A stretch of DNA of 61,952 nt from an uncultured Pelagibacteraceae bacterium (GTDB lineage Bacteria > Pseudomonadota > Alphaproteobacteria > Pelagibacterales > Pelagibacteraceae), in contig CACHTV010000005.1 in assembly GCA_902582875.1 (NCBI GenBank), positions 1 to 61,952 on the forward strand, given 5' to 3'. Each line of letters starts with the position of its first letter. The stretch's first letter is position 1. This document shows, in pieces, positions 8,299-27,566 of this stretch. The notes beneath the pieces are model-generated. The model had not been told where the DNA came from. It searched no databases and saw nothing but the letters and a program-made list of their open reading frames with translations. Position numbers and translations under genes: made by a program.

Positions 8299-8676
8299 TC
8301 AACTTTTAGGTTTAAATACTAAACACACGCCATTGTTGCAATAACGTTTTCCTGTTGGTTTTGGACCATCATCAAAAATATGACCGTGATGTCCTCCACA
8401 TTTTTTACAATGATATTCTGTTCTTGGATAACCGATATGCATATCAGTTTTTTCCTCAAATACATCTGGTATAGATTTAAAAAAAGATGGCCAACCAGAA
8501 CCACTTTCATATTTTGAACTAGAGTCAAAAAGTTTAGTACCACAACCAACACAATGGTATGAGCCTTCTCTCTTTTCATTGTTTAAAGAACTTGATCCAG
8601 GAGACTCTGTTCCCTCTTGCTTTAAAATATAGTTTTGTTCAGGAGTTAAATTTGGATCCCAATTTTTATTACTCAT
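8299..8676 (-). CDS. msrB: peptide-methionine (R)-S-oxide reductase MsrB
   Basis: This 125-residue protein has the MsrB fold: the first zinc-binding pair in [10 protein letters not shown], then SGSGWPSF, the second pair in [14 protein letters not shown], and the catalytic cysteine in GKRYCNNG (usually RYCINS). It repairs R-methionine sulfoxide in proteins using thioredoxin. It overlaps the 3' end of cysE by 8 bases and is probably co-transcribed with it, so two sulfur-related genes sit together. Confidence 0.94.
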
Positions 8677-9244: not shown

Positions 9245-9271
9245 AATTAAATTTAATTTTTAAATGACAGA

Positions 9272-9391
9272 TTACTTGTTGCAGCAACAAGTTTCGTCTT
9301 CAGGCTTACAAAGGCATTCTCTTGAACCATCGCAAGAACATTTATCGCTTAGGCAATTAGTACATTTGCATTTTGGATTATTGCATCCCAT
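9272..9391 (-). CDS. 39-residue cysteine-rich metallothionein-like peptide
   Basis: Reading from ATG at 9391 to TAA at 9272 gives a 39-residue peptide with 11 cysteines in C-X-C, C-X-X-C and CCC arrangements: MGCNNPKCKCTNC at the start, then KCSCDG, ECLCK and TCCCNK. This density and spacing are typical of metal-thiolate proteins of the bacterial metallothionein type. It contains no aromatic residues. It lies on the same strand directly upstream of cysE and msrB, which would supply cysteine. No strong Shine-Dalgarno is visible. Its reality rests on the composition, which is very unlikely for random AT-rich DNA. Confidence 0.72.
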   Translation of the reverse strand: MGCNNPKCKCTNCLSDKCSCDGSRECLCKPEDETCCCNK

Positions 9392-9571
9392 ACTGTATAT
9401 ATAGTTAGATACTTTAAATTTTCAATGCCTTATTTCTTCTTTTTTGTCGAAGATACTAAAGATAATGTTCTGAAGTTAAAACATTTGAATAAATTCACAA
9501 CTTTTGCACTATTTACAAATTAGATTATCTTGACGTATCATTCTCTTCTATTTAGAAATTAACAATTATCT

Positions 9572-13707: not shown

Positions 13708-13725
13708 TTATTTATAAGTCTTATA

Positions 13726-14313
13726 CTAATTGGCTAACTTATTTAGCCACTGCATATATTCTTTTGAAACAATAGCTACTCTTAAGTGATCCTGATATTC
13801 TAGTTTTTTTGACCAATCGTAACAACTTATTAGTACATGATCTACATAATTAAGATTCCCAGATCCAAATATGACATAATAATCGTATGAGTAAGAATCT
13901 TTATCATCTGTATGTACTCGTTTTTCAAAGTCTTTCTTTGGTTGATTTATAAATAAATTAGATAACTCTTTTATAATCTCATCTCTTATTTTAAGACAAG
14001 AATTAATATCATCCTTAAACCATTTTATTCCTTGTATTGATTTGGATGTAAAATTTTGATCAGAAGCTTTGAAAGTCACACTTATTTTATCATATATCCC
14101 AGAAATATTTTTTCCATACTTTTTAAATTCTTTATTTCCTTTTGCTTGTTCTAAAAAATGTGAATTGTTTTTAATTTCACTTTTGTCAAAATGTTTTAAT
14201 AAACTATCACCTAAACTCATTCCTCCTATCTGAAAATCTTTTATATCATCCGCTTGGGATGGACTTATGAAGCATAAGCTAAAAAAAATTATGATTATAA
14301 AAATTTTCTTCAT
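13726..14313 (-). CDS. secreted DDIxDF-family protein, island copy 1 (divergent)
   Basis: This 195-residue protein has a signal peptide (about residues 1-21, cleavage after PSQA). The mature start is DDIKDFQIGGMSLGDSLLKH, the family hallmark but with IGG in place of IEG. The two family cysteines are kept, in INSCLKIRDEI and ISCYDWSKK, and would pair in the periplasm. The mid-protein DKTGKS box seen in most copies is altered to DDKDSYS. It is separated from the other island copies and sits downstream of a Sel1-repeat gene with a 1-base gap. I do not know a function for the family. Confidence 0.82.
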   Translation of the reverse strand: MKKIFIIIIFFSLCFISPSQADDIKDFQIGGMSLGDSLLKHFDKSEIKNNSHFLEQAKGNKEFKKYGKNISGIYDKISVTFKASDQNFTSKSIQGIKWFKDDINSCLKIRDEIIKELSNLFINQPKKDFEKRVHTDDKDSYSYDYYVIFGSGNLNYVDHVLISCYDWSKKLEYQDHLRVAIVSKEYMQWLNKLAN

Positions 14314-14314
14314 T

Positions 14315-14896
14315 TTAAATTGGCTTTGATTTTAAAAGAGTTATATAAAAATCTCTAAGTTTCTGCATTTCTTTTGAGGGATTTTTATTATATTGATTGA
14401 TTTCTATTAATAGCTCATCAGGGTCTGCGTAGCATGTATTATTAGGGTCGAGTTGTTGAGACGCACTTAAAAGCCAAAATCTTTTTGCTTCATTTAAATC
14501 TTGATCTAAATCGGCCAATCCTCCGTAATAAAAAAGACCCATATTATAACTTGCTATAGAACAACCTAAATCAGATGCTTTTTTATTCCAGGCTATTGCC
14601 TCTTCATAATCTTTAGGTGCGCCATACTCTCCTGTAAATAAAAACCATCCAACACTAGTCATGGCGTTTACTTGATTTTGTTCTGCTGCTTTAATGAGGT
14701 ATTCAACTGCTTTCTCATGATCTTCAGGAATATTGTAATCAGGGAAACCATCTAGATACATATTTCCCAGTTCATTTTGTGAAATGGCATCACCTTGATC
14801 AGCTTTTTTTTTAAGATAAGAATGATAATCTTCAGAGTATACACTCGAAGTATTGATTGCAAAAAGAATTAAAAATGCAGTAATAATTCTTTTCAA
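14315..14896 (-). CDS. exported Sel1-like repeat protein
   Basis: This 193-residue protein has a signal peptide (about residues 1-21) and at least three Sel1/TPR-like helical repeats: AISQNELGNMYLDG, NAMTSVGWFLFTGEYG with DYEEAIAWNKKA, and IASYNMGLFYYGG with NEAKRFWLLSA. Sel1 repeats are protein-interaction scaffolds; an exported one probably works in the periplasm. It is embedded between a small membrane protein gene and family copy 1, all on one strand with 1-base gaps, so it belongs to the same operon. Confidence 0.82.
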   Translation of the reverse strand: MKRIITAFLILFAINTSSVYSEDYHSYLKKKADQGDAISQNELGNMYLDGFPDYNIPEDHEKAVEYLIKAAEQNQVNAMTSVGWFLFTGEYGAPKDYEEAIAWNKKASDLGCSIASYNMGLFYYGGLADLDQDLNEAKRFWLLSASQQLDPNNTCYADPDELLIEINQYNKNPSKEMQKLRDFYITLLKSKPI

Positions 14897-14897
14897 T

Positions 14898-15107
14898 TTA
14901 CCCTCTGCTTTTATTTTTTTTTCTTCTTGTAGTTGATTTTTTTTTAGGCAAAGAACTACATAAAGCTAATATGATAATTATAATTAACGGTGAAATCAAA
15001 AGAGCAGGTAAAATCCAATTCCATGGATTTCTATTTTTTGATAACGCTAATCTATAAATTCCATAGTAAAGACCACCTACTACTAAGATTATAATTAACC
15101 ATTCCAT
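14898..15107 (-). CDS. small membrane protein, unknown function
   Basis: This 69-residue protein has two hydrophobic segments (about residues 2-20 and 31-50) and a very basic tail (KKKSTTRRKKNKSRG), so the C-terminus is expected in the cytoplasm. An AAGGAA ribosome-binding site lies a few bases upstream of the ATG. It is followed after 1 base by the Sel1 gene. I do not recognise a family. Confidence 0.6.
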   Translation of the reverse strand: MEWLIIILVVGGLYYGIYRLALSKNRNPWNWILPALLISPLIIIIILALCSSLPKKKSTTRRKKNKSRG

Positions 15108-15131
15108 ATTTTTTCCTTTCTTTAATTAAAA

Positions 15132-15980
15132 TTAATATTCTATATCTAATTGAGTTATAACTTTTTTAACGTTAAATTTTTGATCTTTGAAATAGTTAAT
15201 CCATAAGTTTTTGAGCGAAATGTCTATTTCCTTATTTGTTTCTTTCCTATAATTTAAATAAATCATCTGAAGATCAATACCTTTCCCATTTGGAGATGTA
15301 GCTAAAAGATAGTCTTTATCACTTAAGTTCTTCATAAAATCTTTGAAAGTTGGACACTTTGCATTGCTAGAATTAGCATTACACGCTTTATAAAAAGAAA
15401 GTCTTGTAGTGTTTTGCATTAAATCAGACACAATAATTAACTCCCTAAATGGTTGATTTGAAGCAAAATCTAATTTTGGATTTTGAAAAATATATGCAAT
15501 TGTCTCATAAATATAGCTATAACGAGACTCTTTATTTGTTGAGAAGATTTCATCATATATTTTGTTGGAAGCTAAATAAAACCTTTTAAAATAACTTGAA
15601 AGAACTTTGGAGTTTTCAAACATTGTAGCTTTTTCTTTTTTACTTTTCGAACTACCATTTTTAGGTCGACATTTTGTAAATACAAATGTATTTTCACTAA
15701 ATTTGTTATGATTTATTAAAAAATATGAAAACTTAGTGAAAGGATCATATTTCAAATAGAATTCTTCAGAAAAAACTTGATCTTTAATAAATTCTTTTCT
15801 TGCACTATCAATATCAGTCGTTAAATCCAATAAAATAATTACGTGTCCGTATTTTTCTCTTTCTTTATCACAAAATGTATCTTGATTGATCCCTTTAGGG
15901 ATATTTGGTTTCCCTGCTAAAGAGAACGTAGAGTTAAAAGAAAACAAAATTAAGATACTAATGAGTATTAAATTTTTCAT
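15132..15980 (-). CDS. exported von Willebrand A-like protein
   Basis: This 282-residue protein has a signal peptide (about residues 1-22). It then has the strand-loop HVIILLDLTTDIDSARKEFI, which resembles the first strand and metal-site loop of vWA domains (here DLTTD rather than DxSxS), and a later hydrophobic strand RELIIVSDLMQNT, which resembles the third metal-site region. I recall proteins with LIDxTD and SDMLQN motifs beside coiled-coil membrane proteins, but I cannot name the family. Its start overlaps the upstream membrane-protein gene by 23 bases, so the two products probably work together. Confidence 0.68.
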   Translation of the reverse strand: MKNLILISILILFSFNSTFSLAGKPNIPKGINQDTFCDKEREKYGHVIILLDLTTDIDSARKEFIKDQVFSEEFYLKYDPFTKFSYFLINHNKFSENTFVFTKCRPKNGSSKSKKEKATMFENSKVLSSYFKRFYLASNKIYDEIFSTNKESRYSYIYETIAYIFQNPKLDFASNQPFRELIIVSDLMQNTTRLSFYKACNANSSNAKCPTFKDFMKNLSDKDYLLATSPNGKGIDLQMIYLNYRKETNKEIDISLKNLWINYFKDQKFNVKKVITQLDIEY

Positions 15981-17418
15981 GTAACTCCCTTTGTTTATCT
16001 ACTGATAATTTTTGGATCTGTTCAATTTCTTTCTCAGCTTGTTTAAATTTCTGATCTATACCCTCATCGATCGCTAATTTTTTCTTTTCTCTTTGTTCAT
16101 CAGTCATATAATGAAAGGCTACATCAGGAAAAACTTTTACTGGATCTTTTGATTCATCTGGTAAAGAAAATTTATCCTTAAAATACTTAGGAGCATCAGT
16201 TTTTCTAACCCGAATATTTTCTTTTCGATATTCATTGATTATATGATCACTTTTTCTCTCTACTGCCTTAGCTTTCTGCTCAAATTCTACAAATTCTTTT
16301 TGGATCATGTTTGTATTTGTGTCCCAATAAGCCAATTCATTCTTTCTAATATCGTCAAATACTTTTTGAAGTTGATTTCCACTTTTAGAGAATATTTCTG
16401 ATATATCCTTAGCGTAACTACTAAAAGTTTTTCTAATATCCTCTTTATACTTATTTACTCTTTTACCAACATTCCCGTATTCAGGATATGTATCATTATA
16501 AGTGAATCCATCCATTATTGAAATAAAAGCAAAAGTAAGTCCTACAAAAGTTAAAATTGTACCCGTAAAAACAAACGAAATATCATCACTCCATGGTTTT
16601 ATTACTGAAGACATTATTTCATTAATCTCTTGAGCTTTTAATTTTGTTGCTTCTGTAGCACCATCGCCATATTGTCTCTCAAAGACCTCCCCCGCTTTTG
16701 ATCTAAAAGCGCCAAGACAAGCATTTACATAAACTATAAAAACTACAAAGAGAGATGAAAAAAAACCAAAAAGAATTCTTTTTGTTTTTTCAAGATGTGT
16801 AATTTTTTTAAATATATAATAACCAACTAAACCTGAGGCAATGACGTTTAAAAATGCTACACTTATTGCAACAGCCACTCCTTCTGCTAGTCCTCCAACT
16901 AATTTTTCATTAATCATGAAGCCATTTAAAATAGACTCAAATATAAATAAAAAGAATATTAAACCAACTGCCTTAATTGTTTTTCCTGTATCAGCAAAAT
17001 TTGGTTCTCTTCCCTGTAATTGATGATATTTTTGAAACTGTTTTTGCTCTTCTTTAAAAGTATCATAATTACTTTTCAAGTCTCTTAATTTCATTTCTTT
17101 TTCAGTAATCAAATTATGAAAGTCAGATTCTAATTTATTAACAATTGGTTCAAAATGATTTTGTTTTAAGTGACTTGATAGTTGATTTTGTTTTTCCTCT
17201 GTAATTGTAAGGTGCTCTCTTAAAGCTGTAGTATTATTTTCTAAATATGTTGAACATTCTTGTGTAATTTCATTTTCTGTTACTGATAAACCTACAGAAT
17301 TAGTAGTTGGCTCATCACCCATAGCATCTCTTTTAGCCTTTTCTCTAATTTCATGTTTTTTTTCTATATTTTCAACATTAAAGTGGCTCCATTTAAATTT
17401 ATCATTCATTTTATTCAT
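15958..17418 (-). CDS. multi-pass membrane protein with long coiled-coil arms
   Basis: This 486-residue protein has an N-terminal coiled-coil region (about residues 55-135), four hydrophobic segments (about 148-168, 180-203, 214-236 and 278-302), and a long charged C-terminal coiled coil (about 320-486, many E/K/Q). No enzyme motif is visible. The gene overlaps the vWA-like gene by 23 bases. Small membrane protein genes lie upstream on the same strand. The layout suggests an inner-membrane scaffold that holds the secreted vWA-like partner; that is inference. Confidence 0.68.
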   Translation of the reverse strand: MNKMNDKFKWSHFNVENIEKKHEIREKAKRDAMGDEPTTNSVGLSVTENEITQECSTYLENNTTALREHLTITEEKQNQLSSHLKQNHFEPIVNKLESDFHNLITEKEMKLRDLKSNYDTFKEEQKQFQKYHQLQGREPNFADTGKTIKAVGLIFFLFIFESILNGFMINEKLVGGLAEGVAVAISVAFLNVIASGLVGYYIFKKITHLEKTKRILFGFFSSLFVVFIVYVNACLGAFRSKAGEVFERQYGDGATEATKLKAQEINEIMSSVIKPWSDDISFVFTGTILTFVGLTFAFISIMDGFTYNDTYPEYGNVGKRVNKYKEDIRKTFSSYAKDISEIFSKSGNQLQKVFDDIRKNELAYWDTNTNMIQKEFVEFEQKAKAVERKSDHIINEYRKENIRVRKTDAPKYFKDKFSLPDESKDPVKVFPDVAFHYMTDEQREKKKLAIDEGIDQKFKQAEKEIEQIQKLSVDKQRELHEKFNTH

Positions 17419-17483
17419 AAGTTATTTCACCATAATTTTTGTGTTAAGAAAACCCTTTCTATTTAATTGTTTTAAGTTATTTT

Positions 17484-17729
17484 TCATATATTCATCAAAT
17501 CCTCTGAATTATTTTTAATTATTTCATCTACCTTTCTTCTAATATTTGAATTTGTTCTATCTTGAATATACGTAGCACTTAATTTTAAAATAGGTGATCC
17601 ATTTTTAAGATATCTGAAATTATCTGATGAATTTAGTGCAATGCTTGCTAAAGAAATTGTATAAAACAAAATTCCAAATTTTCCTAAAGAGATAATCAAT
17701 CTAATAATTGAGGATATAAATGAATTCAT
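17484..17729 (-). CDS. small membrane protein, unknown function
   Basis: From the ATG at 17729 this is an 81-residue protein with one hydrophobic stretch (about residues 4-30) and a polar C-terminus (SNIRRKVDEIIKNN). Earlier in-frame starts at 17786 and 17798 would overlap the preceding gene. I chose 17729 because a GGGGAG ribosome-binding site lies 11 bases upstream and because the longer form would read through a hairpin. The SPILKLSATYIQDR segment is not a motif I recognise. Confidence 0.5.
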   Translation of the reverse strand: MNSFISSIIRLIISLGKFGILFYTISLASIALNSSDNFRYLKNGSPILKLSATYIQDRTNSNIRRKVDEIIKNNSEDLMNI

Positions 17730-17740
17730 TTTGAATTTAT

Positions 17741-17767
17741 CTCCCCTTTTTATTTCAAAGGGGAGAG
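17741..17767 (-). repeat. hairpin between two small membrane-protein genes
   Basis: A 10-bp perfect inverted repeat (TCTCCCCTTT and AAAGGGGAGA, loop of 7) lies just past the stop of the 17776-17988 gene. On the minus strand the distal arm contains the GGGGAG that would serve as ribosome-binding site for the next gene. It could therefore act as an attenuator or a translation-blocking hairpin that sets the ratio of the two products. Confidence 0.6.
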
Positions 17768-17775
17768 TAAAATAT

Positions 17776-17988
17776 TTAGTCGCCATCCTTTCCAACACTC
17801 ATTAATGTTGCGCCAAGAAATCCAAAGATCATTGGGGAAAATCTTGATGCTGCGCCCATAAAGCTTGTTAGATTTACTCCAGCCCATGACAGTGCAAAAT
17901 CTGCAATTGCAAAAGCAACTAATAAAAACCCTAGTATTTGCAATACTGAAGTACTATTCGTATCTTCTTGTACTTTTACTTTTCTCAT
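17776..17988 (-). CDS. small membrane protein, first gene of the vWA-like operon
   Basis: From the ATG at 17988 this is a 70-residue protein with two hydrophobic segments (about residues 13-32 and 45-65, the latter FSPMIFGFLGATLMSVG). A strong AAGGAG lies 6 bases upstream of this ATG. The in-frame ATG at 18015 has that Shine-Dalgarno inside its coding sequence, so the shorter form is preferred. It faces a large palindrome and the oppositely oriented caspase operon. Function is unknown; its strong ribosome-binding site suggests abundant synthesis. Confidence 0.6.
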   Translation of the reverse strand: MRKVKVQEDTNSTSVLQILGFLLVAFAIADFALSWAGVNLTSFMGAASRFSPMIFGFLGATLMSVGKDGD

Positions 17989-18037
17989 TTTTGTCTCCTT
18001 TGTTTTTGTTTTCATGATTGAGATATAGTTGTTATTT

Positions 18038-18125
18038 AAAAAAATTCTTGTCCAGGTTTAGATTGGAAATTGGACAAAAATTTTTAGTCCAAAATCTAGA
18101 AGATATTTGGACAAGAAATTTTTTT
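18038..18125. repeat. 88-bp nested palindrome between divergent island operons
   Basis: Three inverted-repeat pairs are nested around one centre near 18081. The outer arms AAAAAAATTCTTGTCCA (18038-18054) and TGGACAAGAAATTTTTTT (18108-18125) differ by one inserted base. The middle arms are TAGATT (18059-18064) and AATCTA (18093-18098). The inner arms are TTGGAC (18070-18075) and GTCCAA (18087-18092), with an AAAAATTTTT core. The GGACA/TGTCC element thus occurs four times. It lies between the starts of the minus-strand vWA-like operon and the plus-strand caspase operon, a position fitting an operator or a structured leader. Confidence 0.8.
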
Positions 18126-18146
18126 AAAATTCTCTATATTTAAGTT

Positions 18147-18380
18147 ATGAAAAAAATATTTGTTTTATTATTAACTTTTAGCATGTGGTCTAGTCCATTA
18201 TATGCTTCAAAAATGAATGATTTATTAGAGCAAAATTTTAAAATTGTTAAAACTGAGATTGTTAAATTTGAAAGAGCTGCGGTAAAAATTTTCACTCTCA
18301 AAAAGTATAAAACTATTTATATTTGCTCTCAAGAGATCAGAGTCTATGGTTTGCGTGATTCAGAATGTAATAAACCTTAA
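18147..18380 (+). CDS. small secreted protein, unknown function
   Basis: This 77-residue protein has a signal peptide (about residues 1-20, cleavage after LYA). The mature part, about 57 residues, has two cysteines (ICSQEI and SECNK) that could form a disulfide, and a basic character. It is the first gene after the palindrome, ahead of a small lipoprotein and the caspase-like gene on the same strand. I do not recognise a family. Confidence 0.6.
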   Translation: MKKIFVLLLTFSMWSSPLYASKMNDLLEQNFKIVKTEIVKFERAAVKIFTLKKYKTIYICSQEIRVYGLRDSECNKP

Positions 18381-18386
18381 TTTAAG

Positions 18387-18587
18387 ATGAAAAAGCTAGT
18401 TATATTTTTTTTATCAATAATCTTTATTGTTTCATGTGATCAACTCAACCCTCCTGTAAAAAAGTCAAAAACAGGTATTTGTCACAAAGCTGGTTCACAG
18501 TATTATAATCAAACAAAAAGTTTCAAAAAGTTCACAACAATCGAAGATTGTATTAAAAGTGGAGGTAGATTGCCAAAAAGAAGGTAA
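18387..18587 (+). CDS. small lipoprotein with GICHKxGSxYY / GGRLPKR motif
   Basis: This 66-residue protein has a lipobox (IFIVSC, Cys17) followed by a short mature domain: KTGICHKAGSQYYNQTKSFK and CIKSGGRLPKRR. The mature part has two cysteines. I recall the GICH...SYY...C..SGGRLPK pattern from many short marine bacterial and phage proteins of unknown function, which suggests a widely distributed module. It starts 6 bases after the preceding secreted protein gene. Confidence 0.65.
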   Translation: MKKLVIFFLSIIFIVSCDQLNPPVKKSKTGICHKAGSQYYNQTKSFKKFTTIEDCIKSGGRLPKRR

Positions 18588-18629
18588 AAAATGAATAGAA
18601 ATTTAATTAATATTATTTAAAATATTAGA

Positions 18630-18854
18630 ATGTTTAAAATAGCTAAAAAAATTAGCATACTATTTTTTGTAGGTATTTTTCTAATTTCATCTGCAGAAGC
18701 TAACTGGATCACTAAAAAAAGTGATAAATCTAAAGAAATAATAAAAAAAGAAGAAAAACAAAAAAAAGAATGGATTAAACTTAAAAAATTAAAAGATAAA
18801 ATTAAGTTAAAGAAGAAAAAAAAAGAAGTCAAAAAAAAACAAAGAAGAATTTAA
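18630..18854 (+). CDS. N-terminal fragment of the caspase-like gene: signal peptide and Lys-rich segment
   Basis: This 74-residue reading frame has a signal peptide (about residues 1-22, SSAEA) followed by NWITKKSDKSKE and a highly charged, lysine-rich helix. It ends in a stop only because the frame changes. The next frame is open from 18811 and continues into the caspase-like domain without a good start codon of its own. Nine-base A-runs lie at 18816-18824 and 18831-18839. Removing one A from either run joins the two frames. The original gene therefore most likely spans 18630-20121. Confidence 0.7.
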   Translation: MFKIAKKISILFFVGIFLISSAEANWITKKSDKSKEIIKKEEKQKKEWIKLKKLKDKIKLKKKKKEVKKKQRRI

Positions 18855-20121
18855 AAAAGAAGAGAAAAAAATTACAAAAGAAGTTAGATCTTGGATTACA
18901 AAAAAATCTAAAGATAATCACATAGATAGTATTGATAAACTTCCTGTCTCAGAAGTTTATTTTACTGGTGCTAGTTCAGATAGACCTTTTTACGGATATA
19001 TAAATCCTGATACTGATTCAAAAAAAATTAATGATCGTTATGAAACTAGTAAAGGAATAGTTTATTTCAACGATGGCAAAACTACCTGTAAAATTGGTAC
19101 AACAGTTTTAGATGTTACATTAGGACGTGTTATCGCAAGAATGTCTGGTAAATGTTCTGATGGCATTTCATTCCATGGTAGCTTTACTGAAACCAAAAAA
19201 AATGTAGCTACTGGTACAGCAGCGACAAATAAGGGTGAAAATTTTATATTCAATTTAAATTATGATAAAAAACTTATCGCTAATCTATATAAAAATCAAA
19301 AAGAAGAAAAATCATTTGCTAGAAGTTTACCATCTCCAATTAAGAAAAAAATTACTTTAGATCCAAAAGGTAAATATTATGCATTACTAATAGGAAATTC
19401 AAATTACGATGACAATGGCTGGGATGATCTTGTTTCTCCAGTAAACGATATAACTGCCATTAAAGCAGTTTTAGATAAAAGTTATAAATTTGAAAAAATT
19501 ATAATGGTCAAAGATGGAACAAAAAAACAAATTTTTAAAGCTTTCAAAGATTTATCAAAACTTACAACAACTAATGATTTTGTTTTAGTTTATTACTCTG
19601 GTCACGGAATGGTAAAAGCAGAACAAGCTTATTGGGTACCAAAAGATGGTAGTTTAGAATGGGGAAATGGAGATTGGATTAATGTGCATGAGCTTAATAT
19701 ATATCTTACAGAGATAAAAGCTCATCACTTAGCAGTAATGGTTGACTCTTGTTATGTTGGGGGAAAATTTAAAGGGTTAAATATATTAGATTTAACTGAC
19801 AACGATGATCGTAAATCATTTAATGAAAACTTAAAAGATAATCTAAATTTAAGATCAAGATCTGTGTTATCTTCCGGAAGTACAGGCAGAGTAAGCGATA
19901 CTGCTCCTAATTCAAAAAATTCTATATTTGCACAATCTTTTTTAAATGTTTTAAAAGCTTCCGAAGAACTCTCAACACCTACAAATATGCTGACTGTAGC
20001 ACTTAATGTTAGGGAATCATTTGTTGGAAATTTTACTCAAAAACCAGAATATTATTATCCTAGTGCATGGGCGCATGGAGGTGGAGACTTTATATTTATC
20101 CCTAAAAAAAATCTTAAATGA
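18811..20121 (+). CDS. caspase-like (C14 family) exported peptidase, frameshifted from its signal peptide
   Basis: The frame is open from 18811; its first ATG is only at 19141, inside a conserved-looking region, so the true start is probably the signal peptide at 18630 in the other frame. Counting from 19141, the caspase p20 core runs from YYALLIGNSNYDD near residue 80. The catalytic His155 is in YYSGHG and the catalytic Cys204 is in VDSCYVGG. Both dyad residues are present. Ahead of it is a domain of about 110 residues (EVYFTGASSDRPFYGY onward) that I do not recognise. The stop overlaps the next gene's ATG by 4 bases (ATGA), so a trypsin-like protease is translationally coupled to it. Substrate specificity is unknown. 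Confidence 0.88.
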   Translation, partial: RRKKKKSKKNKEEFKKEEKKITKEVRSWITKKSKDNHIDSIDKLPVSEVYFTGASSDRPFYGYINPDTDSKKINDRYETSKGIVYFNDGKTTCKIGTTVLDVTLGRVIARMSGKCSDGISFHGSFTETKKNVATGTAATNKGENFIFNLNYDKKLIANLYKNQKEEKSFARSLPSPIKKKITLDPKGKYYALLIGNSNYDDNGWDDLVSPVNDITAIKAVLDKSYKFEKIIMVKDGTKKQIFKAFKDLSKLTTTNDFVLVYYSGHGMVKAEQAYWVPKDGSLEWGNGDWINVHELNIYLTEIKAHHLAVMVDSCYVGGKFKGLNILDLTDNDDRKSFNENLKDNLNLRSRSVLSSGSTGRVSDTAPNSKNSIFAQSFLNVLKASEELSTPTNMLTVALNVRESFVGNFTQKPEYYYPSAWAHGGGDFIFIPKKNLK

Positions 20122-21398
20122 TTAAAAGATTTTTAATTTTATTTATTACAATTTCTTACTCTGCTACGGCTTATTCAGAAAATTTTAATAGTCTTCTCTT
20201 TAGCTCTAAGATGGTTGGAAATGAGAATTTAGTTATATACCAAACGCCATTAACTAACAAAAAACAAATTAAACAAATCAACCAAGAAATTGAAGCTAAT
20301 AATGATTACTTAAATAAAATTAGACCAAAACTAATTAGTAAAAATAAAAACAGACCTCCTCGAACTAAATTTAAAGGAGCATCAGAAGATATTTATAAAG
20401 ATTATGCTAAAAGTGTTGTTTTCATAGGAAACAGAAAAAAAAATACTTCTGGTTCAGGTTTTGTAATAAATCATAAAGGAAAAAAAATAATAACTAATTG
20501 GCACGTTGTTGAAGGCTCTAAAAATGTAAAGGTATGGCTTAAACCTAAAGATTTAGTCGCTGAACAATACATGTTAGATAATTTAGACTCCTACAAAGCA
20601 AAAGTTGTTAAAATAGATAGAGAAAAAGATTTAGCTTTATTGGAGGTTGTGGAATTGCCAAATGACATTAAGCCAGTTACATTAGGAAATTTTAACGATG
20701 TCAGTATTGGTGAAACAGTTTTTGCTATTGGGCATCCTGATGATTTAATTTGGAGCTTTAGCAGCGGCATGGTAAGTCAGTTGAGGCCAAATTATAAATG
20801 GAAATATAAAAATTCCTTTCATTTTGCTGATGTAATACAAACACAAACTCCTATAAATCCAGGTAACTCTGGTGGTCCTTTATTTAATAAAAATAAAAAA
20901 TTAGTTGGAGTAAATACATTTACTAAAGAAGGTGAAAATTTAAATTTTGCTATATCAGTGAACGATATGGTTGAGTTTCTAAAAAAACCAGAAAAAAAAA
21001 TAAAAAAAAATAACTATATTCAAAAGAAAAAAAAAGAACCTACTTGGATCACCAAAAAAAATAAAAAAGCCAAAAAAAATAGCATAGATAAAAAATACCC
21101 TGATGCCGAAAAAAGAGATATGAACAAAAATGGTATTACAGATGTTTGGTTTATAGATGAAAACAAAAATGGAAAGATAGATGCCGCAGTTATTGATCAA
21201 AACGAGGATGGTATAGTTGAAGCAGTAGCATTTGATGAAAATGAAAATGAAAACTTTGAAATCTTTCTATTTGATGATGACCTAGATGGTAATGCTGATA
21301 GAGCAGAAATAGATGAAGATGATAACGGTACCGCAGATATAATGGCTTATGATAACGATCAAGATGGAAAGTGGGATAAATATGAAAAGATATCTTAA
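20118..21398 (+). CDS. exported trypsin-like (HtrA-type) protease with C-terminal Ca-type repeats
   Basis: This 426-residue protein has a signal peptide (about residues 1-20). Its S1 protease domain has the full triad: His129 in TNWHVV, Asp171 in EKDLALLEV and Ser251 in NPGNSGGPLF. No PDZ domain is seen. A lysine-rich linker contains PTWITKKNKK. The last roughly 95 residues are about seven repeats of a DxNxNGxxD type (DMNKNGITDVW, DENKNGKIDAA, DDDLDGNADRA, DNDQDGKWDKY), which resemble calcium-binding thrombospondin-3/dockerin-like loops. Its start overlaps the caspase stop, so the two peptidases are made together. It may be activated by, or activate, the caspase; that is inference. Confidence 0.9.
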   Translation: MIKRFLILFITISYSATAYSENFNSLLFSSKMVGNENLVIYQTPLTNKKQIKQINQEIEANNDYLNKIRPKLISKNKNRPPRTKFKGASEDIYKDYAKSVVFIGNRKKNTSGSGFVINHKGKKIITNWHVVEGSKNVKVWLKPKDLVAEQYMLDNLDSYKAKVVKIDREKDLALLEVVELPNDIKPVTLGNFNDVSIGETVFAIGHPDDLIWSFSSGMVSQLRPNYKWKYKNSFHFADVIQTQTPINPGNSGGPLFNKNKKLVGVNTFTKEGENLNFAISVNDMVEFLKKPEKKIKKNNYIQKKKKEPTWITKKNKKAKKNSIDKKYPDAEKRDMNKNGITDVWFIDENKNGKIDAAVIDQNEDGIVEAVAFDENENENFEIFLFDDDLDGNADRAEIDEDDNGTADIMAYDNDQDGKWDKYEKIS

Positions 21399-21411
21399 AA
21401 ACTCGGTTTAA

Positions 21412-21882
21412 TTATTTATCTTTACGGTCAATAGTAAGTTTAATTTTAAGAATTTTATTTTCTAAATCTTTAATAGCTTCAAATATATCTTTTTTTTCTA
21501 AAGCTGATATCTCTTCACCCTTCTCACCTTTAGGGTCCTTAGCCTCTTTAACTAGTTCCGTAAGTTTTCCATGCAATATCGTAGATTTAACTAGCATTTC
21601 ATTAATATCCTTATTTTCAAAATTATCAGCTTTCTCTAACAAATGTACAATCATATACTCGTAAGCAGTAAGTAAAGGTGGAGCTTTGCCTTTTTGAATA
21701 CAGGCTTGATCAAGTTTAAATGAGTCGTTGTGATCAATTTGTTGGGCTAAATCAGGGTTACTACATTTTCTCAAATATGATGAAGTTTTACCGATTGCTT
21801 TATTAATTTCTTCATCAGATAAAATTTTTAAAACCTCCATTAAACCGCTCTCTATAGAGGCGCTTTTTCTTATTTTTGCCAT
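21412..21882 (-). CDS. putative DNA-binding regulator (phage CII-like helix-turn-helix)
   Basis: This 156-residue protein without signal peptide has an N-terminal region EEINKAIGKTSSYLRKCSNPDLAQQIDHNDSFKLDQACIQKG. It reads like a helix-turn-helix followed by a dimerisation segment and resembles proteins I recall from alphaproteobacterial prophages and islands (SYLRKCSDPD...LDxAC..xGxxPPLLxAY). The C-terminal half is a charged helix. It is the only clear cytoplasmic regulator candidate in the island and lies between the protease and the ion-channel gene, so it may control one of them. Confidence 0.6.
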   Translation of the reverse strand: MAKIRKSASIESGLMEVLKILSDEEINKAIGKTSSYLRKCSNPDLAQQIDHNDSFKLDQACIQKGKAPPLLTAYEYMIVHLLEKADNFENKDINEMLVKSTILHGKLTELVKEAKDPKGEKGEEISALEKKDIFEAIKDLENKILKIKLTIDRKDK

Positions 21883-21926
21883 TTCAAATATTATGATTAT
21901 AATAAATCAAACTCAACTTATTGTTT

Positions 21927-23393
21927 ATGAATTTGATTAAATATAAATTTCTTTTGCTGCTTTTTTTAAGCCTGGTATTACCTGACTTTTTTCAAGCTAA
22001 AGCCGATGTAGGAGAAAAATTTAACAATAAAATAATTGAAAACTATACAGAAATTATCGGACAATACCCTTTTCAGGAAAGAAGAAATGATATTGGAATA
22101 TTTTATGATTTTGCTTGGGATAAAAGTAACAAAAAAATTATCATCAAAAGAGATAATCAAAATTTACCTATTATAAGATTTTCTTTATTTAACAAAGATA
22201 TTCAACCAGGTGTTTCTATTAAAAAATATAATGATACAGATTTATCTCAAACTTCAGATAAAGAAATAAGAAAACTTCATAAACAAAACGTTGAAGCAAA
22301 ACTTACTTTTAAAGATAACCAAATAATCTCTCTTAAACCCAACTTTTATAATTATAATGATATAAAGCTATCTAATTTTTATTTAGAATTTATAAATAAC
22401 ATTGATACTAACAAAGGGTTGCTAGAAATAACATTTCGAGCAGACTTTACTAATAAAAGACCAGAGCTTAATTCATTAGCTGAAGGGTTATTGGGGGATA
22501 GTACATATTGTACCACATATGATGCTGGGCCATACCCCATAGACGAAATTCATATTAAAGAATACAAATACGATGTTGATATAAGGACAGGTACTGGAAC
22601 TCCGGTCACTGAAGGATGTTATCCTGTATATTTTACTTATGATAACAATGAAGTAAAAACTATTAGGCGTGAATACGGTATAGGGCAATTCAGACAAGTA
22701 TTTAATTTTAAAAAGTTTCCTTTTGATAAACAGAAATTAAAAATTTCAATTACCTCTAATACGAATAGCAGTCAAAACATTTCACATGTTTGGCCAAAAA
22801 CAGGTTATGGCTCAGTACATTTTTTAACTCCTGAGAGAGGTGCATTTTTAGGATTAGAGGAATACATAAATAAAATCTCAAAAAATTATCTAAAAGAATG
22901 GACTGTAACTAATACCAATATAGAGAGTGAAGAAATAATCTTAGATAACTATTATAGTCCCTATTCAAATAAAATACATCCTTTCCATGAAAATTCTATC
23001 AACTTAGTTTTAGATATTGAAAGAAATTCAGCTCATTATGTTTATAAAATTATTGTTCCTGTGTTTCTAATATTAAGTGTTGCATGGTTTGTTTTGTGGA
23101 TTCCTACTCACCATCTAGAGTCGAGATTAACAACTTCTATAGTTGCTCTATTAGCTTTGATTGCATATAACTTTGTTTTTTCAGATGATATTCCTAAGCT
23201 AGATTATTTAACTGCGTTGGATAAATATATCTTATTATCTTATATCTTCTGCTGTATACCCACTTTTATGAGTATTGGATTCAGTAGATTTATAGTCAGA
23301 AATCAAAGAATGGTTACAATTATTAATAAAAGACTTAGAGCTTGGTTGGGACTGATTTATTTATTAGCTTCTATACAAATATTTAATTTTTAA
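21927..23393 (+). CDS. pentameric ligand-gated ion channel (Cys-loop family) homologue with extra N-terminal domain
   Basis: From the ATG at 21927 this is a 488-residue protein with a signal peptide (about residues 1-26). The extracellular ligand-binding domain occupies about residues 150-365 and contains the family signature FPFDKQ near 268. It is followed by LDIERNSAHYVYKIIVPVF entering M1 (about 370-391), the pore helix M2 (ESRLTTSIVALLALIAYNFV, about 400-422), the M2-M3 loop DDIPKLDYLT, M3 (about 432-455) and a short C-terminal M4. It resembles GLIC and ELIC. About 120 residues ahead of the ligand-binding domain are additional and of unknown fold. The ligand and ion are unknown; it should sit in the inner membrane facing the periplasm. 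Confidence 0.92.
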   Translation: MNLIKYKFLLLLFLSLVLPDFFQAKADVGEKFNNKIIENYTEIIGQYPFQERRNDIGIFYDFAWDKSNKKIIIKRDNQNLPIIRFSLFNKDIQPGVSIKKYNDTDLSQTSDKEIRKLHKQNVEAKLTFKDNQIISLKPNFYNYNDIKLSNFYLEFINNIDTNKGLLEITFRADFTNKRPELNSLAEGLLGDSTYCTTYDAGPYPIDEIHIKEYKYDVDIRTGTGTPVTEGCYPVYFTYDNNEVKTIRREYGIGQFRQVFNFKKFPFDKQKLKISITSNTNSSQNISHVWPKTGYGSVHFLTPERGAFLGLEEYINKISKNYLKEWTVTNTNIESEEIILDNYYSPYSNKIHPFHENSINLVLDIERNSAHYVYKIIVPVFLILSVAWFVLWIPTHHLESRLTTSIVALLALIAYNFVFSDDIPKLDYLTALDKYILLSYIFCCIPTFMSIGFSRFIVRNQRMVTIINKRLRAWLGLIYLLASIQIFNF

Positions 23394-23476
23394 AAAAACT
23401 TTAACTCCCTTTTTTAATTTTTTCAGCAGATTAAAACTAGAACTGTTAGAAATATCCTCAGCGTAACAAAGTGTGA

Positions 23477-24064
23477 TTATTTGTAGGCTTCTTCATTTAT
23501 CCACTTCGAGTATTCTGTTGAGTTTATAAATACTCTCAAATTATCAATATAGCCATCTTGCTCAAATTTATTACCAAAATCAATACACATGATACGTACA
23601 CTTTCTCCTCCATAAAAATTAAAGTCAGTGGAATGAAATTTGGACTCGCCGGTTGTATCTTCGTCTTGTTTTCGTGTATATGATTTACTTTTTGATACTT
23701 TGGAAAATAATTCTTTTATTTCAGAAAATATTTCATCTTTCTTCTTGAGACAACCGTCTATATCATTTGGAAATTGTAAAGCACCGCCTAAGCTATAAAT
23801 TATATAATTTTTATCACTGGATTTGAAACCATTAGTAAGTGCATCAAAAGTGTTTAATTTTGAAGATCGAATAGTAAGTTGATAGAATTTTTTACTACCT
23901 GGAAAATCATCTCTACGAAAACTTTTTATTTCTTCTTCACTAAAATAATTTAGCAAACTATCACCAACGCTCATTCCTTCTATTTCAAATTTACCAATAT
24001 CATCACCCTTGGATGGGGTTGTAAAGCATAAGCTTAGAAATAGGATCGCTAAAAGTTTTTTCAT
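23477..24064 (-). CDS. secreted DDIxDF-family protein, array copy 6 (distal end)
   Basis: This 195-residue protein has a signal peptide ending PSKG and the mature start DDIGKFEIEGMSVGDSLLNY. The cysteines are in IDGCLKKKDEI and VRIMCIDFGNK; the DKTGKS box is EDTTGESKF. It is the last member of a six-gene minus-strand run with gaps of a few to about 40 bases, and it ends near the convergent ion-channel gene (83 bases between the stops, no clear terminator seen). Confidence 0.83.
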   Translation of the reverse strand: MKKLLAILFLSLCFTTPSKGDDIGKFEIEGMSVGDSLLNYFSEEEIKSFRRDDFPGSKKFYQLTIRSSKLNTFDALTNGFKSSDKNYIIYSLGGALQFPNDIDGCLKKKDEIFSEIKELFSKVSKSKSYTRKQDEDTTGESKFHSTDFNFYGGESVRIMCIDFGNKFEQDGYIDNLRVFINSTEYSKWINEEAYK

Positions 24065-24067
24065 TAT

Positions 24068-24685
24068 TTAGTATTTTATACTTTGTAAAAAAGACGAATA
24101 TTCTTTTGATAATATAGCTACACTAATATGATCATACCATCTTTTTTCTTTCTTTAATCTGTTTGACCAATCGTAAATATGAACAGCAACTTTACTTTGA
24201 TTTTTAAATATAAATTCATTTGCATAGACATGGCTATCTTTGGACTTATCGGCGGTGTGCCATTGATCCCACTTATTAAATTTTGCAGCATTTCCAAAAA
24301 ATTCTTTTAGTTCTAAAACAATATTTTTTTCTTTAGAAAAACAGTCTTGTATATCATCCATGCAAAATATTCTTCCTTGAATACTGTAAATTTTATATTT
24401 TTTATCATTTTTCTTTATGACAATTGATAAGTCCTCATACTGATCAAGTTCTTTGATAAGAATAAAAGACTTACCAGAACCAACACCAACCTTAATAAAT
24501 TTGTTTCCTGGATATTCATATACAAATTCACTATTCATTTCTTTTTGGATTTCATTTTTAGTAAAATAATCTAACAAACTATCCCCTATGCTCATTCCTT
24601 CTATCTCAAAATCTCCGATATCATCCGCCTTAGTTAATGATTGGAAGCTTAACATTAAGATCAGAATTAGTAATAATCTCCTCAT
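24068..24685 (-). CDS. secreted DDIxDF-family protein, array copy 5 (altered cysteines)
   Basis: From the ATG at 24685 this is a 205-residue protein; a longer form from 24760 would place about 25 polar residues before the signal peptide and is rejected. The signal peptide ends LTKA, then DDIGDFEIEGMSIGDSLLDY. The first family cysteine is kept (IQDCFSKEK), with another cysteine nearby in IFCMDD. The second family cysteine is lost: the usual CYDWS is here IYDWS. It may therefore form a different disulfide from its paralogues. The box region reads ADKSKDSHV. Confidence 0.8.
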   Translation of the reverse strand: MRRLLLILILMLSFQSLTKADDIGDFEIEGMSIGDSLLDYFTKNEIQKEMNSEFVYEYPGNKFIKVGVGSGKSFILIKELDQYEDLSIVIKKNDKKYKIYSIQGRIFCMDDIQDCFSKEKNIVLELKEFFGNAAKFNKWDQWHTADKSKDSHVYANEFIFKNQSKVAVHIYDWSNRLKKEKRWYDHISVAILSKEYSSFLQSIKY

Positions 24686-24775
24686 AACAAAGACTTTCTC
24701 ACTGTGGCCTATGAGTGTCAAGATTTCAGGCAAGTTGAAATTGTCTGCTGATTGGTTCAATTTAACACATCGACT

Positions 24776-24793
24776 CCAGGCTTATGAGTCCTG
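24776..24793 (-). other. anticodon-stem-like hairpin in a paralogue spacer
   Basis: On the minus strand CAGGACTCATAAGCCTG forms a 4-bp stem with the 7-base loop CTCATAA, which looks like a CAU anticodon arm. The flanking sequence does not complete a cloverleaf. It may be a tRNA remnant or chance. It lies in the longest gap of the array (24686-24802). Confidence 0.2.
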
Positions 24794-24802
24794 CGGTTGA
24801 CC

Positions 24803-25378
24803 TTAATAAGCTTCGTTAATCATCCAATTAAAAAATTCTTCTGTATTAATTGCTATAGTTAATCTATCCCCATTACCCATAGTCTCAGACCAATTTGTGC
24901 ATATGGCACGTATGTTGTCTCCATTCTTAAAATAAATGGTTGTGCTTTCATCGTAACTATTCCCTGATTTATCTATAGATCGTTTGTATCTATTGTCTTC
25001 TTCTTTTTCAAATTCACCTATAACGCTTTTTATCTCTTTCAAAATCTGAGTTTTTTTTGTTTTGCATTTGTCAAAATTATTTCTAAAAAAGATATCAGCC
25101 ATCATTGAATATATAATATATTTATTATCAGAAGCCTTAACACTTGCTGTAATCATATCATATTGCAAAAGTTCTATATCAACTCTGTATTCTTTAAATT
25201 TTTTACTTTTAGGATAAATAAAAGGTTTTTGATTATCAATATATTCTTTGCTAACAAAATTCAATAAACTATCCCCAATGCTGATCCCTTCAATTTCAAA
25301 GTCTCGAATATCATTTGAGTATAAATTTGAAAAATTAAAAACATAAAAGATCAGAATAATATAAGTAAGTTTTTTCAA
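24803..25378 (-). CDS. secreted DDIxDF-family protein, array copy 4
   Basis: This 191-residue protein has a signal peptide ending LYS and the mature start NDIRDFEIEGISIGDSLLNF, the only copy with N for the first D. The cysteines are in FDKCKTKKTQI and IRAICTNWSET, and the box is IDKSGNSYD. It keeps the family's C-terminal pattern (RLTIAINTEEFFNWMINEAY), which closely matches copies 6 and 1 of the array in the last dozen residues. Confidence 0.82.
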   Translation of the reverse strand: MKKLTYIILIFYVFNFSNLYSNDIRDFEIEGISIGDSLLNFVSKEYIDNQKPFIYPKSKKFKEYRVDIELLQYDMITASVKASDNKYIIYSMMADIFFRNNFDKCKTKKTQILKEIKSVIGEFEKEEDNRYKRSIDKSGNSYDESTTIYFKNGDNIRAICTNWSETMGNGDRLTIAINTEEFFNWMINEAY

Positions 25379-25397
25379 TTAACCCTCTCTTCTCCTT

Positions 25398-25973
25398 TTA
25401 ATTATTTATAATAAAATCCATAAATTCGTGGGTATTAACAGACACTTTTAAATTTGGTCTCATTAAACTGTCTTTTGTAAAATCATAACAATTTATGTTT
25501 ATCGACTCAAGACTAGGATAGGGCTTGAGATAGTTTTGTATACCATAAATCATCGATTTTCCTGTCTTGTCCATGGAACTAGGAAATTTGGTTATATCGC
25601 TATCGTTTATTAAAAATTCTTTTTTTACATAAGACTGAATTTCTTTTTTTAATGAATTACACTCATTTAAATTTGCATAATAATAAATTCCTGAAATACC
25701 TACTATTTTATATTTTTTATCACCCTTTTTAACGCTAACGTTTAATTTATCGTATTGGTTAAGTTCATGTATTTTTTCTAATCTGTATGTAACAAATTTA
25801 TCAGTTTTATAATTAATATTTGCTTTTATAGATTTAATTTCTTTTTCAGTTGCGTAATCCAAGAGACTTTCACCTATGCTAACTCCCTCGATCTGAAAGT
25901 CACTTATATCATCCGCTTGGGATGGGATTATTAGAAATAAACTCAGAACCGCGATCGCTAAAAGTTTTTTCAT
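25398..25973 (-). CDS. secreted DDIxDF-family protein, array copy 3
   Basis: I start this 191-residue protein at the ATG at 25973, which begins the signal peptide MKKLLAIAVLSLFLIIPSQA; an earlier ATG at 25991 adds six residues. The mature start is DDISDFQIEGVSIGESLLDY (G-E-S in place of G-D-S). The cysteines are in LNECNSLKKEI and ININCYDFTKD, and the box is MDKTGKSMIYG. Confidence 0.82.
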   Translation of the reverse strand: MKKLLAIAVLSLFLIIPSQADDISDFQIEGVSIGESLLDYATEKEIKSIKANINYKTDKFVTYRLEKIHELNQYDKLNVSVKKGDKKYKIVGISGIYYYANLNECNSLKKEIQSYVKKEFLINDSDITKFPSSMDKTGKSMIYGIQNYLKPYPSLESININCYDFTKDSLMRPNLKVSVNTHEFMDFIINN

Positions 25974-26025
25974 GTTCAAAGATCCTAGCATAAGATTTCA
26001 CACGTAATCTATGCTTAATTCTGTA

Positions 26026-26610
26026 TCATTTACCTTTATGGACTTCATAATGTAACCAGTCTCTAAATTCTTTACTTGATATATCTAAAAGCAAGGAATC
26101 TTTAAGACCAGATTCTTTACTATAATCTTTACATTGTAAAACTACTAGGTCTCCCGAATTAAACATATATCGAATTGTATAGAATAAACTTTTCCCCGTT
26201 TCATCTCCAGTAAATCTAAAACTTCCAGCGTCTATTCTTTCAGCATTGCTTCCGAACAATTGATTTAATTCTGAATCAATTTCTCTCTTTTTTCTTTGAC
26301 AATCTTCTATCTTAATATCTATTATATCACCACCAACTGTGTGTATTTTGTATGAAGTATCATTTTTTTTTAAAGTAATTGTAATCTGATCAAAATTTCC
26401 CGTTGAATTAAAAGCTATATGATAAAATTTGTCACTTTGTTTATACTCATAAAAAGAATCAGGGTTCAAAATTTTTTGTTTGCTAAAATGATCCAACAAA
26501 CTATCCCCAATACTTATCCCTTCAATCTGAAACTCCTTAATATCACCCGACTGGGATGGAGCTTGGAAGCTGAAGAGGATAAGAAAGAAGTATAGAGATA
26601 AGCGTTTCAT
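26026..26610 (-). CDS. secreted DDIxDF-family protein, array copy 2
   Basis: This 194-residue protein has a signal peptide ending PSQS and the mature start GDIKEFQIEGISIGDSLLDH. The cysteines are in IEDCQRKKREI and VVLQCKDYSKE, and the box is GDETGKSLFYT. It begins 3 bases after the stop of copy 1, so translation of the two is probably linked. Confidence 0.82.
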   Translation of the reverse strand: MKRLSLYFFLILFSFQAPSQSGDIKEFQIEGISIGDSLLDHFSKQKILNPDSFYEYKQSDKFYHIAFNSTGNFDQITITLKKNDTSYKIHTVGGDIIDIKIEDCQRKKREIDSELNQLFGSNAERIDAGSFRFTGDETGKSLFYTIRYMFNSGDLVVLQCKDYSKESGLKDSLLLDISSKEFRDWLHYEVHKGK

Positions 26611-26614
26611 GAGT

Positions 26615-27202
26615 TTATTTGTAGGCTTTATTATTTATCCAGTTTCTAAAATTTGCACCCAAGATACTAACTCTTAAGCTGTCAACCCAGTTTTTCTCTT
26701 TTGTAATTTTCTCGCTCCAATCATAACAACTAACTCTAATCACGTCTTTGGTTTTAAAAGTAAATTGAATTGTATTATTTTTGCTTTCGCCTGTTTTATC
26801 TGCTGAATGATCTTTTTCATAGGATTTTTTTTTTACATCTTTGTCAAACAAATCTTGTATGTCTAAAGCGATTTCATTTTGTTTTTTATAACAATTGCTA
26901 AAATTTTCCCTATAAAAAAAACCTCCGACTATTTGTTGGATTGTGTAGTTTTGATCTCCACTTTTAACCACAATTTCTAATACTTCGAAAGTTTTTAATT
27001 TTAAATTAAAATTATATAATACTTTGTATTTTTTTTTTGGGTACCATCTATAAGCGAGATTGTTTATTTCTTCTTTAGTTACATAATCCAATAAACTATC
27101 TCGAATACTCATTCCTTCAATTTGAAAGTCTCTGATATCATCCGACTTGGATGGGGTTATTAAACTTAAGCTTAAAATTATAATTGCTAAAAATTTTTTC
27201 AT
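26615..27202 (-). CDS. secreted DDIxDF-family protein, array copy 1 (proximal)
   Basis: This 195-residue protein has a signal peptide ending PSKS and the mature start DDIRDFQIEGMSIRDSLLDY (R replaces the G of IGDS). The cysteines are in FSNCYKKQNEI and IRVSCYDWSEK, and the box is ADKTGESKNNT. It is the first array member in transcription order, and its ATG overlaps the stop of the upstream small lipoprotein gene by one base (TAATG), so the lipoprotein heads the array operon. Confidence 0.83.
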   Translation of the reverse strand: MKKFLAIIILSLSLITPSKSDDIRDFQIEGMSIRDSLLDYVTKEEINNLAYRWYPKKKYKVLYNFNLKLKTFEVLEIVVKSGDQNYTIQQIVGGFFYRENFSNCYKKQNEIALDIQDLFDKDVKKKSYEKDHSADKTGESKNNTIQFTFKTKDVIRVSCYDWSEKITKEKNWVDSLRVSILGANFRNWINNKAYK

Positions 27203-27537
27203 TAATCACAAACTAGATTTTCTCTAGCTCCCATTAATACTCCGCCCCAAAAGCCTGTTACACCGCTATTGGCATTATCTCTTCTAACTGCTTCACATTC
27301 TAACATTTTTCTTGTTCTTATATTTTCTTTTCTAGCGATATCTATTTGCATTAAACAATTAGAGAATTGCGATGTACCTTTTTTAAAACCATAATATTCA
27401 CAAGTTTTCTTATCATTTTTCATTTGAAGTTCTTGTGACATTCTTTCACGCTCTACTTTTTGTCTGTCCCTTTCTGCAAGATAATCAGCACATCCCATTA
27501 ATAAAAGCATTGGTAATAAGATCAGAATTTTATTCAT
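27202..27537 (-). CDS. small lipoprotein heading the paralogue array
   Basis: This 111-residue protein has a lipobox (LLLMGC, Cys16). Next comes a charged helix (AERDRQKVERERMSQELQ) and then a compact part with four further cysteines (KKTCEYYGFKKGTSQFSNC, MLECEAV, ENLVCD). It is transcribed first, ahead of six secreted paralogues, and diverges from the ETF-ubiquinone oxidoreductase gene with 29 bases between starts. I recall similar CEYYGFKKGTxxFxxCxMQ proteins of unknown function in proteobacteria. Confidence 0.7.
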   Translation of the reverse strand: MNKILILLPMLLLMGCADYLAERDRQKVERERMSQELQMKNDKKTCEYYGFKKGTSQFSNCLMQIDIARKENIRTRKMLECEAVRRDNANSGVTGFWGGVLMGARENLVCD

Positions 27538-27566
27538 AAATAAAATTTTATGATATAAGTTTTAAT

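Follow-up and report, generated by a model that had tools for sequence, protein, structure and literature searches.

An export-type caspase-clan peptidase and an HtrA-type protease form a conserved gene pair on mobile islands of SAR11 bacteria

Gene content of the locus

SAR11 bacteria rank among the most abundant organisms of the ocean. The stretch of DNA analysed here, hereafter the window, comprises 61,952 nucleotides of an uncultured member of the Pelagibacteraceae (contig CACHTV010000005.1, assembly GCA_902582875.1; genome of 0.91 Mb, 73% complete) and carries a genomic island in which the gene for a C14 peptidase overlaps that of a trypsin-like protease by four bases, 20118-20121 (Table 1). 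This overlap had been noted in a preliminary description of the DNA, along with an intact His/Cys dyad in the first protein, an intact His/Asp/Ser triad in the second and the apparent export of both. The two active sites are borne out by the alignments below, and the signal peptides predicted on both proteins agree with export. Two small proteins that the same description linked to the pair as secreted or lipid-anchored, encoded from 18147 (exported) and 18387 (lipobox IVSC), likewise proved real and are kept in most relatives. By contrast, the start of the caspase gene, placed there at 18811, has to be moved to 18630, as the frame breaks at around 18816-18839 and is uninterrupted in the relatives. 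That description includes neither the frame break nor a segment shared by the two enzymes, nor does it cover the exchange of C14 for CHAT partners, the channel and the regulator linked to the pair, the mobility of the island or the way caspase alleles reassort.

Table 1 Features of the island and its caspase-protease pair (positions in the window)
Feature	Position	Strand	Remark
Genomic island between etfA and ETF-QO	13708..27566	.	Flanking genes 24 bp apart in eight relatives
Exported protein, no assigned family, usual module neighbour	15132..15980	-	Divergent allele, ~30% to relatives
Membrane/coiled-coil protein, usual module neighbour	15958..17418	-	Divergent allele, ~30% to relatives
Small membrane protein, 79 aa	17776..18015	-	In all ten modules
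Exported protein, 77 aa	18147..18380	+	Module member in most relatives
Predicted lipoprotein, 66 aa	18387..18587	+	Lipobox IVSC; kept also in more distant Pelagibacteraceae
Exported C14 (metacaspase/paracaspase-like) peptidase gene	18630..20121	+	Pfam, alignment, fold model
Caspase signal peptide	18630..18704	+	MFKIAKK...SSAEAN
First WITKK motif of caspase	18705..18719	+	Predicted mature N-terminus
A-rich stretch in Lys-rich linker, site of frame break	18816..18839	+	Relatives intact
Second WITKK motif of caspase	18892..18906	+	
N-terminal all-beta domain of caspase	18955..19260	+	Most diversified region; 51% to closest relative
Caspase catalytic domain	19348..20115	+	His 19603-19605, Cys 19750-19752; half after 19627 lineage-exchanged
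Exported PDZ-less HtrA-type serine protease	20118..21398	+	
WITKK motif of protease	21045..21059	+	Linker between catalytic domain and repeat tail
Seven 13-residue D.[DN].[DN]G-type repeats, calcium-type tail	21117..21389	+	Model: one strand per 13 residues
Predicted CII-like DNA-binding regulator, 156 aa	21412..21882	-	L054 homologue matches Phage_CP76, E=8.7e-6
Pentameric ligand-gated ion channel	21921..23393	+	Large periplasmic part; DeCLIC among best PDB matches

The pair belongs to a shared block that comprises the 79-aa membrane protein, the caspase, the protease, the CII-like protein and the channel, usually together with the 66-aa lipoprotein and the 77-aa protein. Seven of the nine relatives add two genes related to those at 15132-17418 and a PrsW-type intramembrane protease, the identity of which was tested in loci L042 (13394-14239) and L054 (5453-6130); the window's island has no PrsW gene. 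Of the PDB matches to the channel, DeCLIC is one of the best two, with E=1.2e-14 across the membrane domain. About 260 residues lie ahead of the region matching LBD (Pfam), and DeCLIC gating is under calcium control (PMC9897478, PMC12664993).

The caspase-clan peptidase

The upstream enzyme matches PF00656 (Pfam, E=1.6e-20), and its structural model (pLDDT 80) consists of a Lys-rich linker following the signal peptide, an all-beta N-terminal domain and a caspase domain, with a fold resembling that of plant metacaspase 4 (Z 22.2, 2.4 A over 210 residues) and of MALT1 (Z 21.4). The catalytic dyad, formed by H249 (YYSGHG) and C298 (VDSCY), is invariant in an alignment of 19 sequences. An Asp of the caspase, D197, aligns with the S1-pocket position of MALT1 (phmmer) and is invariant in the same 19 sequences; the retained acidic S1 residue suggests that the enzyme cleaves after Lys or Arg.

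The signal peptide is in a different frame from the rest of the caspase ORF because the frame breaks within the A-rich stretch, and the gene is for this reason listed as two ORF pieces. In all nine aligned relatives the ORF, 471-499 aa long, is unbroken. Their caspase genes, too, commonly contain eight or nine A in a row, and since run lengths differ among relatives with intact frames, slippage or phase variation is possible; the break may be real, slippage-prone or a sequencing artefact. As its frame is interrupted, the window's own copy may be inactive or misread.

The HtrA-type protease

The downstream enzyme begins with a signal peptide and a helical region, which are followed by the HtrA catalytic domain and seven Asp-rich repeats. 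The catalytic domain matches Trypsin_2 (Pfam, E=9.1e-31) and has the HtrA/Deg fold (Z of about 27 with Deg1 in structure comparison), and its triad H129/D171/S251 is invariant across 27 protease sequences. The protease thus shares the catalytic domain fold and triad of HtrA/Deg proteases such as DegP and Deg1, but it differs from both in having no PDZ domain (Pfam scan); instead, it has the helical N-terminal region and a tail made up of the calcium-type repeats, and it is therefore HtrA-like, not a canonical HtrA. The tail has no sequence match in the PDB, and its repeat pattern is of the kind that would bind calcium. A separate DegP-type protease of 469 aa is encoded at 54326-55735 in the window, which sets the module protease apart from the housekeeping HtrA.

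A segment shared by the two enzymes

SAR11 caspases carry the segment W-I-[T/K]-K-K at the predicted mature N-terminus and once or twice more in the linker, while the SAR11 protease carries it once, between the catalytic domain and the tail. Across loci L042-L134, some of which come from the same genomes, caspase-clan proteins account for 40 occurrences and proteases for 20, as against a single one in 1,466 other ORFs. Within proteases, 12 occurrences were observed versus 0.065 in shuffled proteases, and the pattern coding for W-I-T-K-K occurs exactly three times in the window's whole genome, every time within the pair. In several pairs the likeness extends beyond the motif, e.g., WITKKSKDNHIDSIDKLP in the caspase and WITKKNKKAKKNSIDKKYP in the protease. 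The motif is also present in both partners at L101, from a different alphaproteobacterium with a protease that is 33% identical. It is missing from the MORN-C14 and CHAT versions and is therefore not a universal link; outside the SAR11-type C14 versions and L101, no clear motif shared by the partners was found.

Conservation of the pair and exchange of partners

Among 169 genomes of the same genus (own genome included, all counts being subject to the incompleteness of the genomes), the full-length protease is found at 70-95% identity in nine other congeners besides the window's own, and the full-length C14 partner is present in the same genomes. These ten genomes, the window's own among them, are those with close homologues of protease, caspase and channel; named relatives are Pelagibacteraceae single-cell genomes, e.g., AG-439-F03. 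One further congener, G027, has a divergent version of the protease with C14. Both active sites are intact in every congener carrying the pair. The channel occurs at 62% identity or more in exactly the ten of the 169 genomes that have the close homologues of protease and caspase.

Within the genus, four more distant proteases (L051-L054) also sit at caspase-clan loci. Two C14 genes lie near the protease in L051, from G027, while C14 is exchanged for a TPR-CHAT protein of 1,243 aa in L053 (L052 is a near-identical locus ended by the contig end) and for a PDZ-CHAT protein of 1,479 aa in L054. By eye, a small sigma factor/anti-sigma pair is seen at L051:1858-3062, between the HtrA-type protease and the two C14 genes. 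The channel also turns up at more distantly related loci, among them L054 and L067, both of CHAT type, and is missing from the MORN-C14 versions. No match to CHAT was found in the window's own genome.

A wider scan of 84,980 species genomes yielded 80 relatives of the protease, which were divided into a first group of 53 (L055-L107), mostly with Asp repeats, and 27 more distant trypsins, nearly all without them. A C14 or CHAT gene lies near 42 of the 53 subfamily proteases and near none of the 27 distant trypsins (Fisher p = 8e-13), counted by locus with several loci coming from the same genomes. Eight of the 11 exceptions are close to a contig end, the others being L092, L096 and L097. Across phyla, proteases of this HtrA subfamily have a caspase-clan gene as a near-obligate partner, and the comparison of neighbourhoods rules out chance adjacency of the two genes. 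Lineages with a partner include Phenylobacterium, Bradyrhizobium, Rhodocyclaceae, Polynucleobacter and Sulfurimonas, and most of their partner proteins have N-terminal hydrophobic segments of export type. In other lineages, too, C14 is swapped for TPR-CHAT or PDZ-CHAT, and in L076 (Thermodesulfovibrionia; 7892-10942) the two activities are joined in a CHAT-DUF4384-trypsin fusion of 1,016 aa.

Searching other genomes for the adjacent pair had been proposed in the preliminary description, and with its recovery in congeners and across phyla the idea that it is peculiar to one genome falls, as does the idea that its catalytic residues vary among homologues. The four-gene order from 18147 given there holds in five congeners and in part in the others. 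Taken as a functional module, the pair is well supported.

The L076 fusion has no obvious signal peptide. In L069 and L071-L074 a MORN-repeat C14 gene overlaps the protease gene tail-to-tail by four bases, so that the two members of the pair are arranged differently there. A phage origin was considered and rejected: the best of 80 viral-contig relatives match the trypsin domain only, at no more than 39%, and phage records match the catalytic domain only.

Island sites and shuffled caspase alleles

The module block is carried on mobile islands at several chromosomal sites. The gap between etfA and ETF-QO measures 13.9 kb in the window versus 24 bp in eight relatives; the same site is occupied in G130, G083 and G005, whereas in G015 the junction is empty and the module sits at another location. 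The junction seems to be an integration hotspot. Over the ten genomes there are at least four chromosomal sites, which, named from the flanking proteins, include etfA/ETF-QO, a position beside a glycosyltransferase-purB-purC cluster, one between EF-Tu/rlmB-type and NAD-kinase-type genes, and one beside an amino-acid ABC transporter. On such islands the channel and the regulator could be passengers.

Within the block, caspase alleles reassort. Between the window and G130, the 79-, 77- and 66-aa proteins, the protease domain, the tail, the regulator and the channel are 91-100% identical, whereas the caspase reaches only 51% over its N-terminal domain and 72% over the second half, and dS is 0.78 for the caspase versus 0.06 for the adjoining protease. 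Other genome pairs show different combinations: G005 and G015 share 96% of the N-terminal domain, 57% of the C-terminal half and 75% of the protease; G130 and G125 share 98% of the C-terminal half and 78% of the protease; G083 and G036 share 82% of the N-terminal domain and 44% of the C-terminal half. Across the ten genomes, pairwise identity of the caspase blocks correlates with that of the protease domain at r -0.18 to 0.05, compared with 0.68 for the regulator and an intermediate 0.30 for the channel, which also splits into swapped allele groups. The N-terminal domain and the C-terminal half of the caspase have thus been shuffled between lineages, and the protease has not. Recombination is frequent in SAR11.

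Relation to described systems

Bacterial caspases and trypsins are known from several conflict systems. Canu (caspase-nuclease) and nuclease-trypsin are antiviral systems, CanA being MALT1-like (PMC12799240). Like the module, they are gene pairs with a caspase- or trypsin-family protease, and theirs work by proteolytic activation of the partner (PMC12799240). However, Canu is cytoplasmic and its partner is a nuclease of metallo-beta-lactamase fold, whereas both partners of the module are proteases with export signals; no nuclease domain was recognised in the module genes scanned, and the direct partner of the caspase is the HtrA-type protease. Craspase of type III-E resembles the CHAT versions in its TPR-CHAT protease of the caspase clan but is RNA-guided and cytoplasmic (PMC11106740), while the TPR-CHAT protein of the module has export-type signals and adjoins an HtrA-type protease. 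A general domain scan recognised neither gRAMP/Cas7-11 nor a CRISPR neighbour among the module genes scanned. In the VMAP, iSTAND and NucA-trypsin conflict systems, peptidases of the trypsin and caspase superfamilies, the two kinds also present in the module, serve as interchangeable parts (PMC7159879). Yet those systems are built on MoxR-vWA, STAND or nuclease cores, and trypsin and caspase are mutually exclusive in VMAP (PMC7159879), whereas the module has both together and with export signals. Operons in which prokaryotic metacaspases, some of them perhaps bearing a signal peptide, are combined with further proteolysis domains were described in 2012 and resemble the module in this respect; in the parts of that account considered here, an HtrA subfamily with Asp repeats, CHAT exchange, a shared motif, a mobile island and allelic shuffling do not feature (PMC3501461).

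Searches of PADLOC and NCBIfam yielded no family for the pair; PADLOC-DB 2023 gave domain-level matches only, to single caspase or protease models, and none for the channel and regulator. No description of an exported caspase-clan/HtrA pair with these properties was found in the open-access literature searched. To our knowledge, the bacterial caspase and trypsin systems described to date act inside the cell, and the biological roles of prokaryotic ligand-gated channels are largely unknown. If the reading below is true, the conserved SAR11 version would put caspase-type proteolysis in the bacterial envelope, and the linked channel may place one prokaryotic ligand-gated channel in a physiological context.

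A possible role in the envelope

We consider the island genes to form a mobile envelope module in which an exported HtrA-type protease and a caspase-clan partner cooperate, either in the periplasm or on the surface of the cell, a reading to which we give a probability of about one half. A more specific version is put forward tentatively, namely that the module represents a class of envelope system, for conflict or recognition, that has not been described before and is defined by an exported C14 or CHAT peptidase with a dedicated calcium-tailed HtrA-type protease, a shared linear motif, islands at multiple sites and caspase recognition domains diversified by recombination, accompanied in SAR11 by the channel and the CII-like regulator.

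It could be speculated that the variable beta domain binds an envelope ligand or substrate and thereby sets specificity. The shared segment would be a common processing (or docking) site of a caspase cutting after Lys/Arg, found both where the mature caspase begins and at the hinge that joins the HtrA domain to the calcium-type tail. On binding, the caspase would release the HtrA protease from this tail, or the roles would be the other way round, and the result would be proteolysis on a local scale, its specificity being subject to diversifying pressure from phage, a rival strain or surface proteins that change. Regulation of the module probably falls to the CII-like protein. The channel is of a type sensitive to calcium and may respond to the same state of the envelope or of calcium. 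From cleavage and calcium through trigger and target to benefit and a role in conflict, these steps are what we infer. For the mutual processing of the two enzymes, the five-residue segment would be a sharp handle.

Conflict fits best because, on a mobile island, a diversified part sits next to a partner that stays constant, and the shuffling of caspase alleles on islands would reflect strong diversifying pressure; diversification of the caspase can, however, have causes other than conflict. Envelope stress signalling is one alternative, in which a proteolytic switch triggered by damage or calcium, like DegS/HtrA feeding a regulator, would act on the channel or on membrane proteins, and allelic diversity would follow changing envelope substrates. 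The HtrA fold of the protease, the PrsW intramembrane protease in most modules and the sigma/anti-sigma genes recognised by eye near the L051 pair are consistent with it, but a spread as patchy as 10 of 169 congeners at four or more sites is unusual for a stress switch, and the window protease has no PDZ sensor (Pfam scan), which leaves this alternative rather unlikely.

Somewhat less probable still is a nutritional role, with a Lys/Arg-specific clan CD peptidase and an HtrA degrading environmental or envelope protein for peptide uptake, and neither cascade nor conflict. Clostripain and the gingipains are Lys/Arg-specific clan CD peptidases, and secreted members with trypsin-like cleavage are generally known; SAR11 feeds on dissolved organic matter, and the predicted export signals and intact catalytic residues of both proteins would suit such a pair. 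Yet nutrition leaves unexplained why a CII-like regulator, a channel and PrsW travel with the pair, why the motif is confined to it, and why shuffled caspase domains stand next to a constant protease. Mere co-residence of the two genes on an island, with no functional link, is largely refuted and very improbable: SAR11 islands hold many unrelated genes and some neighbours, the 190-200 aa paralogues, vary freely, but the pairing is kept with three partner architectures across phyla (42/53 vs 0/27), and a natural fusion, overlapping genes and the shared motif speak against it.

Other genes of the islands

No Rfam match for a non-coding RNA was found in the island. The protein encoded at 15132 had by eye appeared von Willebrand A-like, an assignment dropped as its L042 relative has no Pfam match. 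The two genes at 15132-17418 are only ~30% identical to all relatives while their neighbours reach at least 90%, which makes them another swapped allele pair. In G009, a different insert of ~9.5 kb (C2:22272-31792), without the caspase pair, occupies the etfA/ETF-QO junction. Many paralogues of an exported protein of 190-230 aa (...ADDI.DF.IEGMSIGDSLLD...) are encoded at 13726-14313, 23477-27202 and 60036-61448; they flank the module, recur elsewhere in the window and near the modules of most relatives, and vary freely in number and order.
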